From a virus: a DNA stretch of 64,000 bases. The stretch is taken from IMG/VR virus record IMGVR_UViG_3300020195_000009, positions 222,006-286,005 of that record. One strand, given 5' to 3'. The notes beneath the pieces were generated by a model. The model did no database searches. It was not told where the DNA came from and worked only from the letters and a program-made list of their open reading frames with translations. Below, piece after piece: positions 7,323 to 55,665 of the stretch. Numbering within the stretch: position 1 is the stretch's first letter; the number at the start of each line of letters is the position of its first letter. A program made the translations under genes and the position numbers.

Positions 7323-7838
7323 TCAACGGGATGGTTTGATCAAACCTAGCGCAGATTGAAGCCCTTGAAGCAAACCCCGAACCTCAGCCATTGTATTTTT
7401 GACCTGAGCAATCTCCTCGGCTCGCTGACGGTCCGCCTGCTCAAAGTCCTCTTCGGGGACACACCTCTTGATCTTGCTTTCAAGCCTTTCGTGGCACTCC
7501 TCGATGTCTTTGAACTGACCCTCCAGCTTACGAAGGCGCTCTTCAAAACCAACGCTCTCCAAGTTGGTGAACGAGCCGGGTCTCCGACGTGGCCAGCTCT
7601 CATCCCCCTGCTGTTCTCGCTGGTAGTGCTCACGAACACTCTTGAGCCCCTCCTCCATGAGGTGAATGGAGTACACGAGGCCTGTCTTGCTATCGATTGA
7701 GCCGATCTTCTTCTCCAGCTCTTCCACTCGCTTTTTGATATCGCGGAAAAAGGCGAGGATCGTAGAAAGAGCCGTACCGCCACCTGAGATGACCGCAGGT
7801 ACAACACTCTCTAGGAGGTGGTCGAGAGAGAAAGCCAT
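7323..7838 (-). CDS. Coiled-coil protein with short hydrophobic N-terminus
   Basis: 171 aa. Residues 8-29 are hydrophobic (LLESVVPAVISGGGTALSTI), then a long heptad-rich region (VEELEKKIG..., LRKLEGQFKDIEE, VKNTMAEVRGLLQGL). A membrane-anchored or self-assembling coiled coil is likely, resembling the layout of holin-associated or spanin-like proteins, but no family signature allows that call. Confidence 0.6.
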   Translation of the reverse strand: MAFSLDHLLESVVPAVISGGGTALSTILAFFRDIKKRVEELEKKIGSIDSKTGLVYSIHLMEEGLKSVREHYQREQQGDESWPRRRPGSFTNLESVGFEERLRKLEGQFKDIEECHERLESKIKRCVPEEDFEQADRQRAEEIAQVKNTMAEVRGLLQGLQSALGLIKPSR

Positions 7839-7941
7839 GATCCTCCGGTTGGACCTTCCAGAAGGCCTAATCTAGCCAAACCATAAGGCAAAAACCGTGG
7901 TAGGTGAGAAGGGGCCCTTGTCTAAAGGTAACCCATAAATT

Positions 7942-7979
7942 GAAAAAGGCCGGCAGGAGTTTTGAACCCCTGCCGGCCT
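7942..7979 (-). terminator. Intrinsic terminator
   Basis: Perfect 11-bp stem (7947-7957 with 7969-7979) and an 11-nt loop; on the minus strand the stem is followed by TTTTT. It sits downstream of the minus-strand fragment at 8002. Confidence 0.75.
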
Positions 7980-8001
7980 CTTGACGTGTTGGAAGGTCTA
8001 C

Positions 8002-8499
8002 TTACAGTTCGACCTTCTCGATTACATCGACCCAGTGGTCCTTCGTGGCACCCTTGGTGAAGGCCGACACAACCTCGAACACGGTGTCCGAGAAACCACC
8101 CACGTTGAGAATGTTACCGTCCTGATCAGGGACCTGAACGGTACTGTGTGGCGTCAAGTCGATGCAGACCAACTTGGCGTTGGGGCAGCGGCGCTTGAGG
8201 ATGAGCCACTGCTCCATCATCGCCGTTCCACGACCCCCGGCCCCAATAGGGTGCGCCCAGGACTCGTAGTCGGAGACGAAAACCACGAGGTCTACATGAG
8301 CCCGCTCCGCATTGAGAGCCCGGAGCGGCGCATCGCAGTTCGTGGCCCCACCCCGGAACGAAGCGAGCCTCGTAGGCCTCCACACGAGCCGGCAGGTTGC
8401 CTTCGATCGGGAAGACCTCCTCCCCGAACTTCGCCGCCGTCTTCCCAATGAGGTAGGCGTGAAGAGCCGAACGAACCTTGGTCTTGAGGTTGGGGGTTA
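8002..8499 (-). pseudogene. Ro60 (TROVE)-type vWA domain remnant, truncated and frameshifted
   Basis: The C-terminal part matches the Ro60 vWA region: RGGATNCDAPLRAL, then VDLVVFVSDYESWAH, AKLVCIDLTP and VGGFSDTVFEVVSAF. The preceding residues (KTKVRSALHAYL...VEAYEARF) are in another frame, with the break beside a GGGGTGGGG run near 8353. There is no start codon, no DxSGS MIDAS segment and no TROVE ring. Intact Ro60 is about 500 aa and binds Y RNA. This copy is very probably non-functional or mis-assembled. Confidence 0.6.
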
Positions 8500-14578: not shown

Positions 14579-15694
14579 ATGAAGAAAAGGGACATCCAGG
14601 CGAAGGCTACGATCAAGGTCGGACGAGACGGAAGCGTTTCCGTCTCGTCACCGGATGTCGTTGACCCCCGCGTGCTCATGAAGCTCGGGATGACCGAGAT
14701 GTCCCGGCGTAAGTTCGCTCAGGTCGCCCCCAAGGCTTTCGGGTTCACCCCCGACGTAGCGGACAAGGACGACCTCATGCGGCTCGGGGAGGTTCTCCGA
14801 AAGGAGACCTACCAGCACGGTGGGGATGAGGTTGCCGCCCCGAAGCTTCTTGAATGGGCGAAAGCTCAGGGTGAAGACTTCATGGATTTGTTCCAGGTTG
14901 AACAGAACGCGATCGTCTACTTCGCCGCCGCCCGGTGGGCCGATCAAGCCTTCCCCGTCGTGACGATGGGAGAACGGTTCTGCGCTGCCCTCATGGCAAC
15001 GAAGATCCCGGAGGAGATGCTCGAAGAGATCGAGGCCCCCTGGCATGCGTTCATGATCGAAGTCCCCGGCAACATGCTGAGTGTCTTCGACCCGGACTCC
15101 ATGCGCCGGACAAGCATCGTCCGGATCTTCGTTCACAAGACGATCGATGTCGATGAGCCGTGGCGCTGGGTCGCGATGGGTAAAGATGGCCAGCACGTCT
15201 GGCGCATGGGGTCCTCTTTGAACCTCGTCACTCCAGTCCAATTCCGGAAGCGCGAGACGGTCCCTTACGAGGTCAACAGCGACGACTGGGAAAACGACCT
15301 TCACCGGGACGAGCGGCTCTACGTTCTCGTAGGTCGCCTCATCCTCAACGCCTGTTTGGTCCTTGCCGACCCAGATCAAGTGAAGCCGCTGGGGTCAAGC
15401 CACAAGCGCCACGAGGCCAACAAGGCCCGCCGACCCGGCCCCCCGGAGCAACGCGTTTTCCAGATCGGTCGACCCATCAACCTGGATTGCCGGGATGCCA
15501 TCCGGGAATACGTAGAGGGGGAGCGCTCTGGACACGAGTTGAAAATTCAGGCGCTCATCCGAGGCTACTGGCGCCGGCAACCCTACGGGCCGAAACTCGC
15601 CTTCCGCCGTAGGCAGTGGATTCAACCCTATTGGAGAGGCCCCGAAGACGCCCCCATTCTCATTCGCCCTCACATGATCCCAGAGGACACATGA
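14579..15694 (+). CDS. Conserved phage protein with RGYWRRQ...QPYWRG C-terminus
   Basis: 371 aa, starting 2 nt after the GHKL gene stop. The last 90 residues (FQIGRPINLDCRDAIREYVE, then IRGYWRRQPYGPK and WIQPYWRGPE) resemble a module I have seen at the end of many actinophage and plasmid proteins of unknown function. The N-terminal two thirds are unrecognised. Operon position links it to the ATPase pair. Confidence 0.6.
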   Translation: MKKRDIQAKATIKVGRDGSVSVSSPDVVDPRVLMKLGMTEMSRRKFAQVAPKAFGFTPDVADKDDLMRLGEVLRKETYQHGGDEVAAPKLLEWAKAQGEDFMDLFQVEQNAIVYFAAARWADQAFPVVTMGERFCAALMATKIPEEMLEEIEAPWHAFMIEVPGNMLSVFDPDSMRRTSIVRIFVHKTIDVDEPWRWVAMGKDGQHVWRMGSSLNLVTPVQFRKRETVPYEVNSDDWENDLHRDERLYVLVGRLILNACLVLADPDQVKPLGSSHKRHEANKARRPGPPEQRVFQIGRPINLDCRDAIREYVEGERSGHELKIQALIRGYWRRQPYGPKLAFRRRQWIQPYWRGPEDAPILIRPHMIPEDT

Positions 15695-17879: not shown

Positions 17880-17957
17880 TGGTGGTCCCGACGGGATTTG
17901 AACCCGCACCCCGCGAATTTAGAATTCGCTGCTTCAAACCATTTGAGCTTCAGGACC
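17880..17957 (-). tRNA. tRNA with CUA anticodon (putative amber suppressor) 1
   Basis: 7-bp acceptor GGTCCTG/CGGGACC, discriminator A and encoded CCA; D-arm; anticodon stem GCGAA/TTCGC with loop TTCTAAA giving anticodon CUA; 5-nt variable loop; T-arm with TTCAAAT loop. CUA pairs with UAG. Position 8 is A rather than the usual U, and the D stem has only three good pairs, so efficiency is uncertain. Confidence 0.8.
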
Positions 17958-19070: not shown

Positions 19071-19103
19071 ACAGATTCTCCACAGCCTGTGGATAGAACG
19101 GGG

Positions 19104-19176
19104 CGCTCCCGGCAGGACTTGAACCTGCGACGTACGGATTTAGAAACCGATGTTCTGCCGACTGAACTACGGGAGC
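19104..19176 (-). tRNA. tRNA with CUA anticodon (putative amber suppressor) 2
   Basis: 7-bp acceptor GCTCCCG/CGGGAGC, D stem GTTC/GAAC, anticodon loop TTCTAAA (CUA), T-arm GCAGG-TTCAAGT-CCTGC, discriminator G, no encoded CCA. The anticodon arm resembles tRNA-Trp with CCA changed to CUA, but has T-T mismatches at 27-43 and 31-39. G73 also fits a Trp origin. Confidence 0.7.
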
Positions 19177-19182
19177 ACACAT

Positions 19183-28744: not shown

Positions 28745-29058
28745 AGTCCCTCCGGGATCTCGTCACGACCAAGGCCACCTCGGATACCGACATTCACGGG
28801 TCGGCTCGTGGCGAGGGTCCGACTGCCGATCCTGGGGTTCACCCGGATGAAGCTCGCTTTACGGCGAGGATGCCCGGAGACGCATCCGACCACCCGTTGA
28901 ACTCCGACAACCCCTTCAGGGGGAAGAACCCTCAGACGGTCCTCCGGGCTCTCCGAGAAGGCAACCTCTCCCCTGACCAGGAGCGCCAAGCTCGGGCAGC
29001 CATCGACACCTACGCGAAGCTTTCAGGTGATCCCGTCGGGGGTCCTAGGAAGCCCTAG
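28741..29058 (+). CDS. Hypothetical protein
   Basis: 105 aa from GTG 28741. Middle region low-complexity; C-terminus ALREGNLSPDQERQARAAID is helical. Overlaps the convergent gene 29023 by 36 nt. Ends in TAG. Confidence 0.55.
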   Translation: MKSLRDLVTTKATSDTDIHGSARGEGPTADPGVHPDEARFTARMPGDASDHPLNSDNPFRGKNPQTVLRALREGNLSPDQERQARAAIDTYAKLSGDPVGGPRKP

Positions 29059-29292
29059 ACCTTTCACGATCTTCAAGATGTCCCGCGATGTGACCACAAG
29101 ACACTTCGCTTGAATTTCGGTGATACGACGCTTGGGGATGTCGTAGTGAGGGTACGAAGACTTCGAGTGGAACCAGCAGCGGAGGATGCCTAGTTCCTTT
29201 GCCATTCGGTGCAAGTTCTCGATACTGTAGGGTTCGCAGACAAGGTGCCGAGCCTCATCGCAGTAGAACGTGAGCTTCTCAGTCAACGTCAT
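29023..29292 (-). CDS. DUF4031-like protein
   Basis: 89 aa. HLVCEPYSIENLHRMAKELG, WFHSKSSYPHYDIPKRR and KCLVVTSRDILK follow the pattern of DUF4031, a short domain found in bacteria and phages, function unknown. It starts inside the end of 29279. Confidence 0.65.
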   Translation of the reverse strand: MTLTEKLTFYCDEARHLVCEPYSIENLHRMAKELGILRCWFHSKSSYPHYDIPKRRITEIQAKCLVVTSRDILKIVKGLGLPRTPDGIT

Positions 29293-29716
29293 CGAGGCTA
29301 CCCTGACCGACCAGGGTACTCATCGTCGCTCCACAGAGGTTGCACTCTCTAAGCTCGAAAGTGCCCCACGGGTGCCGTTCCATCCGACTCGCCAGTTGTT
29401 CAAACTCAGACTTGGCGTAAGGGCGCCCGCATTCGCACCTTCGATGAATCTCCCCGGAATCGAGGAGTTGGTGCCGGATGTCCTTGATGAGCCCTTCAAG
29501 TTTGGCCCGCCCCACTTTGGGATCGAGGAGGAGATAGACCTCCTTGAGGTCCTCAGGCTCATCGAGGCGAAGGATCTCCCCCAAACCCTCGGGAGGAACC
29601 GGCCGTCTCCCCCAAATGAGACCCGCCACCAGTTGCACGGCTTCTTCGCGGGCCCACACCTTCACGAGAAGAACCCGATCTATCGTGGGTAGGTGGACCC
29701 TGTAGTAGTTGTCCAT
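29279..29716 (-). CDS. Hypothetical protein with C-terminal zinc ribbon
   Basis: 145 aa. RRCECGRPYAKSE and LRECNLCGATM supply CxC and CxxC pairs of a zinc ribbon after a helical N-terminal domain. Overlaps the DUF4031 start by 14 nt, indicating coupling. Confidence 0.6.
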   Translation of the reverse strand: MDNYYRVHLPTIDRVLLVKVWAREEAVQLVAGLIWGRRPVPPEGLGEILRLDEPEDLKEVYLLLDPKVGRAKLEGLIKDIRHQLLDSGEIHRRCECGRPYAKSEFEQLASRMERHPWGTFELRECNLCGATMSTLVGQGSLDDVD

Positions 29717-29724
29717 GGCCCTAT

Positions 29725-30342
29725 CTATTCTTGAGGATCAACATCACGTTCAAACCTCGTGGGGGCAAGAGGCTTGCCGGTCTCGTCCCATCGGGCTGTC
29801 TCCCCAGAAGGTACCGTTTCCCACATAGTGACTTCGACTGCGTCCGCTGGGAAATGAAACCCTGCGATCGTTCGAGGACCCATGATGCCATCCTCAGCTA
29901 CCCCTGCGGCTCGTTGAATCCTCCGAACCTCATCGGGAGTCGGAGGTCGAATCACGAAGAAGTCCGCTAGGTTGGGGATGATACGGATCTCTCTCGTCAC
30001 CCGAACCATCGGCTCAAACACCTGCTCAGGGAAGTCCCTAGCCATGAAGGTACCGGATTCTTGGCTGATCCCCGTAACAAGCAGACAGTACCCGTTGGAA
30101 TCCTCCAGGACATCGCCCACTTGGAAGATGCGGTTCCCCTGGGCGTCCTGGATCTGCTGGTGGCTGATCGTGCCCCAAGGCGGCCCATCGCCTAGCCCCG
30201 TGAGCCTAGCAAGCGCCACGTGAACAGGGCAATCGGCTTCTACCCGATCGTGGGCACCATTGTCTGACCAGACGCACGAGCAGACTTCTTCGGTCGAATT
30301 CCCAGCAACGGGTGCCGGAGGTTGAGGGTCTTCGGAAGGCAC
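29725..30342 (-). CDS. Hypothetical protein with PG-binding-like segment and TRFERD tag
   Basis: 205 aa from GTG 30340-30342. CSCVWSDNGAH...DCPVH near the start is a possible zinc site. RRIQRAAGVAEDGIMGPRT resembles one repeat of the PG_binding_1 motif, but only one short copy is seen. Ends APTRFERDVDPQE, the shared C-terminal peptide. A degenerate promoter at 30352-30376 precedes it. Confidence 0.6.
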   Translation of the reverse strand: MPSEDPQPPAPVAGNSTEEVCSCVWSDNGAHDRVEADCPVHVALARLTGLGDGPPWGTISHQQIQDAQGNRIFQVGDVLEDSNGYCLLVTGISQESGTFMARDFPEQVFEPMVRVTREIRIIPNLADFFVIRPPTPDEVRRIQRAAGVAEDGIMGPRTIAGFHFPADAVEVTMWETVPSGETARWDETGKPLAPTRFERDVDPQE

Positions 30343-30351
30343 GTCAGAAGT

Positions 30352-30376
30352 TTACACCTGATGGGGTGCGATTCCA
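30352..30376 (-). promoter_or_regulatory. Degenerate phage promoter
   Basis: TGGAATC 30370-30376 and GTGTAA 30352-30357 with a 12-nt spacer; GTG start 9 nt further. Weaker match than the others. Confidence 0.45.
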
Positions 30377-30379
30377 GCC

Positions 30380-30994
30380 AACTTAGGGCGTTAAATCGCG
30401 AAACCCCGCAAGTCTTTCGACTAGCAGGGTTCGTTACCACGATCCAACAGCCTTTTTAGGGCATGTCCTCGCCCGGTTACCCGGATGTGGCCGAGGTCCG
30501 CCTCAGATTTCTCTGAAACAGATAAACAGTGCCTTGTTTCAACTGCCTGATGGTTTGACCCACCTGCTTAGCCGATCCAACCAACCTGGAGTTACCCCCA
30601 GACTGAAGACACCCACGAGACCTTTCGATCCCCCGACCTCCCCGGTTCTTCTCCTCTTGCGAAGAGTCCCTCGGAGACCACCGCCAACCTCCCTTGCGGG
30701 AGGCCAACCGTGTTGGAATGAGATTTACTCATTCCCAGGTTCCAAACAGCCTTTCGACCATCTGAAGGGAGCCGGACTTCTTGCGTCCTCCGACCCTACC
30801 TTGAATTCCTTGCGGTCTCCAAGGGCCTGTCTGCCTGACTTGCGCCAGCACTGCTTGTTTCAACACGAAGAGTTGCCTCCCCGTGTTCAGAACGAGGCGG
30901 ACAGTACAGGCAGACCTCGCTGTAAGCAAACACTTTTTTCTACCTACTTGTCGATTCCCTACAGCTCATATAAAGTAGGTGGTCTGAACCACAA
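30380..30994 (-). ncRNA. Candidate large ornate structured RNA (about 0.6 kb)
   Basis: No convincing gene in this 615-nt stretch. Read on the minus strand it holds at least eight hairpins or short stems capped by GNRA loops (GCAA five times, GAAA three times). Examples: CCTCCC-GCAA-GGGAGG (30688-30703), TAGTC-GAAA-GACTT within 30399-30433, CTGGC-GCAA-GTCAG near 30838; also an 8-bp stem at 30715-30735 and a 9-bp long-range helix 30829-30837 with 30907-30915. A phage-type promoter at 31002-31030 points into it. Layout recalls GOLLD/ROOL-type phage RNAs. The 3' end is not defined. Confidence 0.65.
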
Positions 30995-31001
30995 GCCTCT
31001 A

Positions 31002-31030
31002 AAACACCAAGGTGGGATAAGGAAATCCAA
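31002..31030 (-). promoter_or_regulatory. Phage-type promoter for the structured RNA
   Basis: Minus strand TTGGATTTC (31022-31030), 14-nt spacer, GTGTTT (31002-31007). Predicted start near 30994; no ATG there. Confidence 0.6.
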
Positions 31031-31049
31031 CAACGGTTGACGATTCCGG

Positions 31050-31076
31050 TTGAAAACCAAAGTGGTCAAGGTGTCT
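31050..31076 (+). promoter_or_regulatory. Phage promoter
   Basis: TTGAAAA 31050-31056, 14-nt spacer, GTGTCT 31071-31076; a GGAAGGGGA ribosome site and ATG 31097 follow. Back-to-back with the RNA promoter. Confidence 0.6.
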
Positions 31077-31096
31077 CAAAGGGAAGGGGATCGACA

Positions 31097-31327
31097 ATGA
31101 CCTACGACGAGATGGCTGTGGAGATTCTGATGGGCCCTGGCTTGGTCAAGACCAAGCAGTCGAAGCTCTCGAAGCTTGCCAAGCAGGCGGCGGCTCGTCT
31201 GGAAAACCGTGTCGAGTGTCCCGAATGTGGACACGAGGGCCCGCACGAGGACAACGGGTGTTCGGGTTCGCAGAAGTCTTACCTCTGCTCCGGCTGCGGT
31301 TGCTGCTTCGATGCGGTGGCGTCGTGA
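31097..31327 (+). CDS. Small zinc-ribbon protein
   Basis: 76 aa. Lysine-rich helix then VECPECGHEG...YLCSGCGCCFD, two CxxC pairs of a zinc ribbon. Stop overlaps the next GTG. Confidence 0.65.
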   Translation: MTYDEMAVEILMGPGLVKTKQSKLSKLAKQAAARLENRVECPECGHEGPHEDNGCSGSQKSYLCSGCGCCFDAVAS

Positions 31328-31593
31328 AGGGGTTGGCGAATTTCAGCCGAACGCAGGAGGCCCTCAAAACCTACGACACCGACAAGTCTCGTCGGGACGC
31401 CGTTTGGGGCGCAACCGACACGAACGAGGCTGTCTATGCAGCCCAGGCCGAAGACAAGAAGGCGGCTGACAAGGTTCGTGAGGCTTTCGCCGAGGACACC
31501 AAGAACATCAACAGCCGCGAACAAGCCTTCCTCGTCAACCCAGACGATCCCTGGCTTCGCGGGCTGGTCACCAAGTACGGAGACGAATCATGA
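31324..31593 (+). CDS. Hypothetical charged protein
   Basis: 89 aa from GTG 31324 (GTGA). Alanine- and charge-rich helices (DKKAADKVREAFAEDTKNIN). ATGA overlap downstream. Unrecognised. Confidence 0.6.
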   Translation: MKGLANFSRTQEALKTYDTDKSRRDAVWGATDTNEAVYAAQAEDKKAADKVREAFAEDTKNINSREQAFLVNPDDPWLRGLVTKYGDES

Positions 31594-32120
31594 GTATTGT
31601 GTACTTTCAAACCGATCACGACGATCGCTGTCACGAGCTAAACGGGGAAACCCCGGCTCGTCTCAAAGACAAGACCCTCATGGGTCTTCTTCAAGACATG
31701 CCTGCCACCGGGGACACCCTGGAGGTTTACCTCGGGACCGACTGGGTGTCCGGTTGGATCCGTGGGGAACCCAACACCTACAAGTTCGAGATCGAATGCG
31801 TGTCGTTCGAGGACGAACGAACCGTCCACGGCGCCATCCACGATGGGCTCATCAAGTACTACAGTGCTCGAAGCAGCCCCCTTCCGTGGCACAAGATCAT
31901 CCCGCCTTCCAAGCAGTGCAACAACCTCCCGGACGAGGTCTACGTGGTCATCGCCAGGGAGGACCGCCAGCCGGACGGCTCCCAGGGTCGGTACACGCTC
32001 GCAACCCGAGCCTTCTTCAAGACTGAAGAGAAAGCCAAAGACTACGCCGTGGGGATCAGCTCCTCTCGGGAACCCCTGGTCATTCCAGGCCGTTTCAATC
32101 AAATGCGAAAGTCTGGTTGA
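31590..32120 (+). CDS. Hypothetical protein ending GRFNQMRKSG
   Basis: 176 aa. Mixed alpha/beta; IVYFQTDHDDRCHELN at the start and LPDEVYVVIAREDRQPDGSQ later. Its last codons are read from the first box of the next promoter. The end GRFNQMRKSG is weakly similar to the TRFER peptide. Confidence 0.6.
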   Translation: MSIVYFQTDHDDRCHELNGETPARLKDKTLMGLLQDMPATGDTLEVYLGTDWVSGWIRGEPNTYKFEIECVSFEDERTVHGAIHDGLIKYYSARSSPLPWHKIIPPSKQCNNLPDEVYVVIAREDRQPDGSQGRYTLATRAFFKTEEKAKDYAVGISSSREPLVIPGRFNQMRKSG

Positions 32121-54132: not shown

Positions 54133-54969
54133 ATGGACCGTGACCTCTCAGGTGCATCGAATGACGCAGAACTCATGCAGCTCTGGTTACAAGGGAGACC
54201 TGAGAGCACCATGAGAGTGTACGAGCCTGTAGCTCAGGCCTTCATGGCCGCTCTCCCCCAAGGCTTGCGAGGGGCAACCGTCAAGGACGTGCTCACCTAC
54301 ATTCAAACACACGTGAAGGGTGAGCCTGCTACCAGGGCTAGGTTGGTGAGCACCATCAAGAGCCTGCTCTCATGGGCCTGGAGGACGGGCTATACAACCG
54401 TCAACGTAGGTAAGGCTATTAGGTGCGTACGGGTGCCCAGTACCCTACACAAGAAGCTGTTAGATGAAGGTCAGATACAAGGGCTATGCCGGGCCGCAAG
54501 CGGCCGTGACCATGCCCTTGTTGTTCTTCTGTACGTGAGCGGTCTTCGTATCAGCGAGGCCTGTGGCCTTCTCGGGTCCGACTTGAGGGGATGTCATGTG
54601 ACGGTCCTTGGTAAGGGCACCAAGACCCGAACCGTCCTGATCCCCCAGGCAGTAGCCGACCTTCTCATGACCCTTACCAAGGGGCACCAGGTTGACCCGA
54701 GTAAGCCGCTCTTCTGTTCCCGGTGGGGGAGGCGCCCCCTGGGCGTCCGGGCCGCTAGGGAGGCTATCTACAAGGCGGCATCAAAGGTCGGCCTGGACGA
54801 CCTGTCGCCTCACTGGCTCCGGCACGCTCATGCGACCCATGCCATGGACCGGGGGGCTCCCCTCCACGTCGTCCAACAGGGCCTTGGTCACGCCTCCGTG
54901 GCAACCACCTCGAAGTACCTCCACGTGAAGCCGAGCGTAGGCGCTTCGCAGTGGCTCGCTCCGGTGTAG
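54133..54969 (+). CDS. Tyrosine recombinase (integrase / XerC-D type)
   Basis: 278 aa. N-terminal SAM-like core-binding half (about 10-100) and catalytic half with the full set: R139 in GLRISEACGL, K161/K164 in LGKGTKTR, H227-x-x-R230 in SPHWLRH, H253 in GLGHASVATTSKY and nucleophile Y262. Active enzyme expected. It may integrate the phage, resolve multimers or act on the nearby repeats. Leaderless-type promoter indicates expression with the other small-gene operons. Confidence 0.9.
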   Translation: MDRDLSGASNDAELMQLWLQGRPESTMRVYEPVAQAFMAALPQGLRGATVKDVLTYIQTHVKGEPATRARLVSTIKSLLSWAWRTGYTTVNVGKAIRCVRVPSTLHKKLLDEGQIQGLCRAASGRDHALVVLLYVSGLRISEACGLLGSDLRGCHVTVLGKGTKTRTVLIPQAVADLLMTLTKGHQVDPSKPLFCSRWGRRPLGVRAAREAIYKAASKVGLDDLSPHWLRHAHATHAMDRGAPLHVVQQGLGHASVATTSKYLHVKPSVGASQWLAPV

Positions 54970-54993
54970 AGTAGGTAGCTCCTTCGGGAGTAA

Positions 54994-55046
54994 GAAGCCC
55001 GCTGTCGTGACCTTGCCCCCCCGAGTGTCCGCAGCGGGCTTCGCTA
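54994..55046 (+). terminator. Intrinsic terminator after the integrase
   Basis: 11-bp stem 54994-55004 / 55032-55042, followed by GCTATTTT. Confidence 0.65.
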
Positions 55047-55054
55047 TTTTCGAG

Positions 55055-55080
55055 TTGAATCCCGAGCGTCTCAGGTGTTC
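55055..55080 (+). promoter_or_regulatory. Phage promoter driving a non-coding RNA
   Basis: TTGAATC 55055-55061, 13-nt spacer, GTGTTC 55075-55080. At +7 nt there is GAAGCGGA instead of ATG. Confidence 0.75.
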
Positions 55081-55087
55081 CTGAAAC

Positions 55088-55245
55088 GAAGCGGACGGTA
55101 GGAAAGCTCTCAGAGAGGCTTGACCGGACGGAGTAGGGACGCTTCGGGGAGATCCGTCCGGGACGCCGGATTCTGAACGGATCTCCCCGAAGCCCGGACT
55201 ACTTCGTCTGGGTCTCTCCCGTTTCGGGAGGGGGCCATCCGCTTC
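55088..55245 (+). ncRNA. Candidate 158-nt structured RNA with closing helix
   Basis: The predicted 5' end GAAGCGGA (55088-55095) pairs with TCCGCTTC (55238-55245). Inside: a 7-bp hairpin with one bulge (55100-55117 region), a perfect 17-bp stem (55141-55157 / 55177-55193), CCCGGA/TCTGGG and CTCCCG-TTTC-GGGAG hairpins. No start codon follows the promoter. Confidence 0.65.
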
Positions 55246-55279
55246 TTCTGGTAAACACAGAGCTTCGCTCGGAATCAAC

Positions 55280-55301
55280 CCAGAAATGAGAGAAATTCGA
55301 G
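55280..55301 (+). repeat. AAATGAGAGG repeat, copy 6
   Basis: CCAGAAATGAGAGAAATTCG; pairs with copy 7 as a 23-bp imperfect inverted repeat. Confidence 0.7.
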
Positions 55302-55349
55302 CGTAGCGAGCCTGCCCCAAAGGGTGCCCTTCCTGTAGGGCGCGAAGCT

Positions 55350-55371
55350 CGAAAACCTCTCATTTCCAGGG
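55350..55371 (-). repeat. AAATGAGAGG repeat, copy 7 (inverted)
   Basis: Right arm of the inverted repeat with copy 6, reading GCTCGAAAACCTCTCATTTC on the plus strand from about 55347. Confidence 0.7.
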
Positions 55372-55436
55372 CCTTTCCCACGTGGTAGCTAGGCAACCGA
55401 AAACGTGACTTTTCGGATCTAGTGCCCAAAAAGGGG

Positions 55437-55462
55437 TTGAATCCGAGCGTCCTCGGGTGTTC
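55437..55462 (+). promoter_or_regulatory. Phage promoter
   Basis: TTGAATC 55437-55443, 13-nt spacer, GTGTTC 55457-55462, 7 nt to ATG 55470. Confidence 0.8.
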
Positions 55463-55469
55463 CTAGATC

Positions 55470-55665
55470 ATGAGCAAGACCCGATTCGACCGGATTCTGG
55501 CCCTCATCGGGCTACCGCCCCAGAACCTCCGAACCAAGGAGGGGCGTAGGCTCAAGGCGTGGTCCGTTCCGCAAGGCCTTCCTGGCCATCAAGATCGCTG
55601 ACGCCTACGACGCTGCCATGGTTGCCCTCGGGGACGACCGACGAGCCTGGCGGGGCTCCAACTGA
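55470..55665 (+). pseudogene. Small protein with N-terminal KTRFDRI, frameshifted
   Basis: MSKTRFDRILALIGLPPQNL...RLKAW reads to TGA 55601 in the first frame, but after about 55565 the +1 frame gives a sensible helix (RKAFLAIKIADAYDAAMVAL) to TGA 55663. Restored length about 65 aa. The peptide found at other C-termini is here at the N-terminus. Confidence 0.5.

Follow-up and report, generated by a model that had tools for sequence, protein, structure and literature searches.

The locus at 30380-31000 raises a simple question: does this intergenic stretch encode a protein or an RNA and, in the latter case, is the RNA of a known kind? An initial annotation had read it as a large structured RNA of the minus strand with its own phage promoter, possibly a member of the GOLLD or ROOL families or else of a new class. 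Positions refer to the window, i.e. the whole stretch of 64,000 nucleotides that was analysed (bases 222006-286005 of a virus record that is 286,005 bases long); those labelled "genome" refer to the record itself. This contig belongs to a jumbo phage, with a large terminase (TerL) at genome 145385-147394. The latter reaches 46% against that of LR745208, a 485-kb uncultured phage, and has relatives on many IMG/VR contigs, up to 529 kb; those in the sample sets IMG 3300037483 and 3300022562 are 100% and 84% identical. A RecD-like helicase, a DNA ligase, a ribonucleotide reductase and an exonuclease are encoded as well. The region of the window is poorly conserved overall and holds many orphan genes.

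Codon log-odds are negative in all six frames of 30380-31000. The longest ORF (168 aa, plus strand, 30534-31040) has -0.22 log-odds per codon, at about the 5th percentile among ORFs of 100-200 aa, while the range for the flanking ORFs (29725-30342, 31216-31593 and 31590-32120) is +0.06 to +0.18. Thus all six frames look non-coding, in agreement with the earlier statement that no believable gene is present. The neighbouring 205-aa ORF gives a weak match to PF01471 (peptidoglycan-binding domain; E 0.0028, below cut-off), and no relative of its protein was found in the viral contigs searched.

The minus strand of 30380-31000 folds with an MFE of -280.1 kcal/mol, i.e. a z of -8.4 against 160 dinucleotide shuffles (an early value of -16 for the same stretch came from only 20 shuffles and was inflated). 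On the opposite (plus) strand z is about -3.4 to -3.8. For 110 windows of 621 nt drawn at random from this genome the mean z is -1.3 (sd 1.35, lowest -4.6), so that the minus-strand RNA lies more than 5 sd out on the scale of these genome windows. Measured likewise, the phage's own tmRNA has a z of -2.6 and a genuine ROOL (pMP118) a z of -1.3; the minus-strand RNA is therefore exceptional even beside functional RNAs. It is singled out by the 621-nt shuffle test and not by a regression of folding energy in sliding 200-nt windows, because coding regions vary widely.

Strong folding was also seen at two other places of the window. The stretch 54945-55566 has an extreme z of about -7 (minus strand), its plus strand being also strong in a shorter window; it contains the repeat GTTGAATCC..GAGCGTC..GGTGTTCCT and has no Rfam match near any family cut-off. 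The stretch 7796-8417 (minus strand) has a z of about -6.4, with ORFs overlapping on both strands and a strong terminator-like hairpin included.

The loops of the predicted fold are equally unusual. On the minus strand of 30380-31000, 10 of the 15 MFE hairpin loops are GNRA (4 GCAA, 4 GAAA and 2 GUAA), against a mean of 0.33 and a maximum of 2 in the folds of 200 shuffles. A local count of GNRA hairpins made without folding (stems of 4 bp or more with no more than one G-U) also gives 10, one of them a probable chance GGGA, against a mean of 0.39 and a maximum of 4 in 2000 shuffles. By such a count the plus strand has zero GNRA hairpins, and the next best 600-nt stretch genome-wide, with five, is the tRNA array. 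The initial annotation had described at least eight GCAA- or GAAA-capped stems on the minus strand only, together with long-range helices. Both descriptions hold: the stem at 30784 is weak, its GCAA loop being closed by one lonely pair, and long-range helices of 14 bp and 9 bp are predicted with pair probabilities of at least 0.98. The fold z, the GNRA excess, the restriction to one strand and the six non-coding frames together indicate that the minus strand of 30386-30994 very probably specifies a real structured RNA.

Table. Positions in the window of the predicted RNA, its parts and the neighbouring elements discussed in the text.
Feature	Position	Strand	Remarks
Large structured non-coding RNA (predicted)	30386-30994	-	Fold z, GNRA loops, six non-coding frames; ends approximate, from the outermost predicted helices
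Phage promoter proposed initially	31002-31030	-	Not supported
Possible 5' H-type pseudoknot	30919-30980	-	ACCTACTT 30980-30973 with 30949-30942; GCTGTA 30965-30960 with 30924-30919; competes with the nested MFE stems there
Domain I (predicted)	30829-30915	-	9-bp closing helix GTCTGCCTG/CAGGCAGAC (30915-30907/30837-30829), pair probability 1.00, spanning 87 nt; inside, an 11-bp stem capped by GCAA (30876); a GCAA hairpin at 30843 as alternative
Domain II (predicted)	30668-30825	-	14-bp long-range helix CCCTTGGAGACCGC/GTGGTCTCCGAGGG (30825-30812/30681-30668), pair probability at least 0.98, across 158 nt, closing a junction; GNRA stems 30784 (weak), 30755 and 30697; UAAAU-loop stem 30735-30715
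Domain III (predicted)	30461-30666	-	GNRA stem loops 30660, 30626, 30595, 30511, 30480; connecting long-range pairs of lower probability
3' hairpin (predicted)	30388-30452	-	11-bp and 9-bp stems, pair probabilities 0.95-1.00; tip AGTC-GAAA-GACT, loop at 30418
GCAA loops (MFE)	30876, 30784, 30697, 30660	-	
GAAA loops (MFE)	30755, 30626, 30511, 30418	-	
GUAA loops (MFE)	30595, 30480	-	
GGTGTA copies (examples in the window)	30353-30358 (-), 21337 (+), 38162 (-), 63603 (+)		
205-aa ORF	29725-30342	-	Neighbour 3' of the RNA, separate from it; codon score +0.056

The predicted parts of the RNA are given in the Table. The pseudoknot in the 5' 80 nt is suggestive only and not convincing alone: when the 110-nt 5' part is shuffled 2000 times, an equally good one arises in 66 cases. 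The word GTTGAAACAAG is present twice in the minus-strand RNA, at 30864 and 30543.

Rfam 15 was scanned with cmscan at E ≤ 10 over the 1-kb stretch 30200-31200. This gave one unrelated chance match only, and no match to the group I intron, group II intron or RNase P RNA models. A reading as RNase P, from GGACGCAAGAAGTCCGGCTCC, which we take to resemble an RNase P core motif, was dropped; Rfam finds no RNase P. At E ≤ 10 the ROOL model (RF03087) has no match in the whole genome, and the same search detects the pMP118 ROOL, used as positive control, at 130.4 bits. The GOLLD model (RF02032) likewise has no match in the whole genome at E ≤ 10, the positive control being ROOL only. Fifty related or comparison records contain no ROOL or GOLLD above cut-off. 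Membership in ROOL or GOLLD is thus not borne out, neither family model matching. With Rfam giving no match and both models empty in the genome, a new class is favoured over a known one, and the class likely lies outside Rfam.

The RNA nonetheless shares traits with known large RNAs. GOLLD and ROOL are phage-associated and form RNA-only nanocages of unknown function; ROOL is frequently near tRNA islands, and a studied example has 659 nt (PMC12286853), a size near that of the RNA here. Like ROOL, the latter is an ornate non-coding RNA of about 0.6 kb from a phage with a tRNA-rich genome, ROOL being known from phages and prophages; it is not beside the main tRNA array of its genome, and two CUA tRNAs lie 11-13 kb from it. 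The nanocage of ROOL is a homo-octamer. In its MFE fold the pMP118 ROOL, the one ROOL checked here, lacks GNRA loops, and its z is -1.3, against 10 and -8.4 for the RNA here; the argument from style, by which known phage RNAs like this one are GOLLD and ROOL, is accordingly weak. GOLLD is similarly a giant phage-associated non-coding RNA, often within tRNA clusters; a tRNA inside or flanking it is frequent, not universal, and no tRNA was found within or beside 30380-31000. OLE RNA and the raiA motif are also large, compact, highly structured and a few hundred nucleotides long, but are known as bacterial RNAs, not phage ones, and Rfam has no match here. The long non-coding RNAs of phage K have been likened to GOLLD/ROOL by their abundance and tRNA proximity (PMC9241854); with them the likeness is by description, as long non-coding RNAs of a large phage.

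Homologues were then sought by several routes. With blastn the RNA has no match in the phage collection, two tiny chance matches only among plasmids, and no homologue in nine TerL relatives, two named phages and fifty further TerL relatives, many of which are fragments; the stray matches in TerL relatives are short, apparently coding or repetitive, and were judged chance. A covariance model of Domain II (R1, built on 30666-30826) matched only itself over 50 relatives and 1.08 Mb of sequence. Viral and genome contigs were also searched for patterns: GTTGAAACAAG..CGCAAG, an array of GNRA loops, paired TTGAAACAA words, and R/Y patterns that tolerate transitions. None gave a relative among the matches listed. 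Scans of GNRA density in 14 related or comparison genomes and contigs (including LR745208 and Tunturi_5) found no counterpart; what they picked up were tRNA arrays and chance hits that look coding. Since it was not found in the relatives scanned, the RNA is probably dispensable for the phage group as a whole.

One candidate from the TTGAAACAA-word scan, a repeat array in viral contig L297 (about 200-600), was rejected as a relative; it looks CRISPR-like, and its repeat includes GCGGGGCGCGTGGATTGAAAC.

How would such an RNA be expressed? The initial annotation had placed a phage promoter just upstream. The proposed pair TTGGATTTC/GTGTTT (TTGGATT..GTGTT) occurs once in 286 kb, and the enriched motif is instead GGTGTA: 36 copies in intergenic DNA against 11.3 expected, many of them 8-20 nt before a start codon. 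Its best form, CGGTGTA, has 17 intergenic copies against 4.1 expected. GGTGTA is probably the phage's own type of promoter, which would produce very short leaders. For the minus-strand RNA no sigma-70-like site and no recognisable promoter or terminator was found. An intergenic stretch of relative G010 has a copy of GGTGTA too, at about base 15,360. Overall, the large structured RNA of the initial annotation is retained and, of the alternatives offered there, the new class is favoured; membership in ROOL or GOLLD and the phage promoter are not supported.

The GGTGTA copy at 30358-30353 (minus strand) sits in the gap between the RNA and the following gene, whose GTG start (30342) comes about 10 nt later. 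It bears on the idea that the RNA is a very long structured cis-regulatory 5' leader of the minus-strand genes 29725-30342, 29279-29716 and 29023-29292. Such a leader would be on the same strand as the genes downstream, some 40 nt separate the 3' end of the RNA from the next start codon, and no intrinsic terminator was found between the two. We regard it as unlikely, because a motif often found just before start codons in this phage separates the RNA from the start of the next gene; moreover the downstream genes have no recognised function pointing to a riboswitch, and 0.6 kb is long for a leader. A ROOL or GOLLD diverged past recognition by the Rfam models would agree with the similar size, the phage host, the tRNA-rich genome and the ornate fold. 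It is improbable: the ROOL model is empty here and yet finds the pMP118 ROOL, the GOLLD model is empty too (with ROOL as its only positive control), the control ROOL is not GNRA-rich, and the main tRNA array (genome 186.9-203.8 kb) is about 49 kb from the RNA (genome 252.4-253.0 kb).

Self-splicing introns and ribozymes can be of this size, GNRA-rich and phage-borne, and an unrecognised or degenerate group I or group II intron, or another ribozyme, would be compatible with these traits of the RNA. We give it little credence, the position being intergenic and not within a gene, the Rfam models of introns and RNase P having no match in the 1-kb stretch at E ≤ 10, and the flanking ORFs scanned having no match to an intron-type endonuclease or reverse transcriptase. 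The GNRA hairpins or small domains could also be separate small RNAs cut from one transcript, as many stems are local and the long-range pairing of Domain III is weak; the two helices with pair probabilities of at least 0.98 tie domains of 87 and 158 nt together, however, and leave this reading a slim chance. Finally, chance or a decayed relic without function would explain that no homologue was found in a region rich in orphan genes. It is very improbable, as the GNRA excess and the folding energy are far outside the shuffled and genomic controls and decay would break stems.

There remains an RNA that stands alone. This reading is favoured by the size near that of ROOL, by the tRNA array and tmRNA of the phage, and by the GGTGTA that follows the 3' end of the RNA. 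The minus strand would be transcribed as a stand-alone RNA of about 0.6 kb folding into several helical domains. Judging from the loop type, its roughly ten GNRA loops would most likely make docking contacts with helices, whether within one molecule or between copies, and so yield a particle that is compact and rigid, and possibly oligomers. As has been proposed for GOLLD and ROOL, the RNA might then be abundant and act in phage development as a scaffold or cage, on its own or together with protein. Particle assembly by GNRA docking would be, we infer, the mechanism best supported by the predicted anatomy. We see about an even chance that the locus encodes a stand-alone, multi-domain phage RNA of a new class with a scaffold-like role as in GOLLD/ROOL and membership in neither. 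The reading that it is the first representative of a class of its own among large ornate phage RNAs, without relation to ROOL, GOLLD or OLE, and that its unusually numerous GNRA tetraloops give rise to a compact or self-assembling particle for jumbo-phage infection, falls slightly short of an even chance; that it would work as a self-assembled scaffold is proposed more tentatively still.

To our knowledge natural RNAs this large and complex number only a handful. If confirmed, a phage RNA as large as GOLLD and ROOL and unrelated to either, the third of its size, would suggest that phages repeatedly evolve such particles. The RNA also lends itself to structure determination, as its predicted fold exceeds shuffles far more than ROOL or tmRNA measured likewise.

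As regards the tRNA genes of the phage, ARAGORN counts 47 in the record. The tmRNA (genome 186576-186925, i.e. L011:6576-6925, minus strand; 77 bits with Rfam) borders an array of 45 tRNAs. Two tRNAs with a CUA anticodon, labelled tRNA-Pyl by ARAGORN, lie at 17880-17957 and 19101-19177 (minus strand), 11-13 kb from the minus-strand RNA. They are possible amber suppressors, with which the use of TAG as stop in 41 of the 212 ORFs of at least 150 aa sits awkwardly. Huge-phage relatives carry tRNA-like genes with a TTA (ochre) anticodon (L253:7629-7705 and L526:2622-2713, in LR745208 and G034; ARAGORN).
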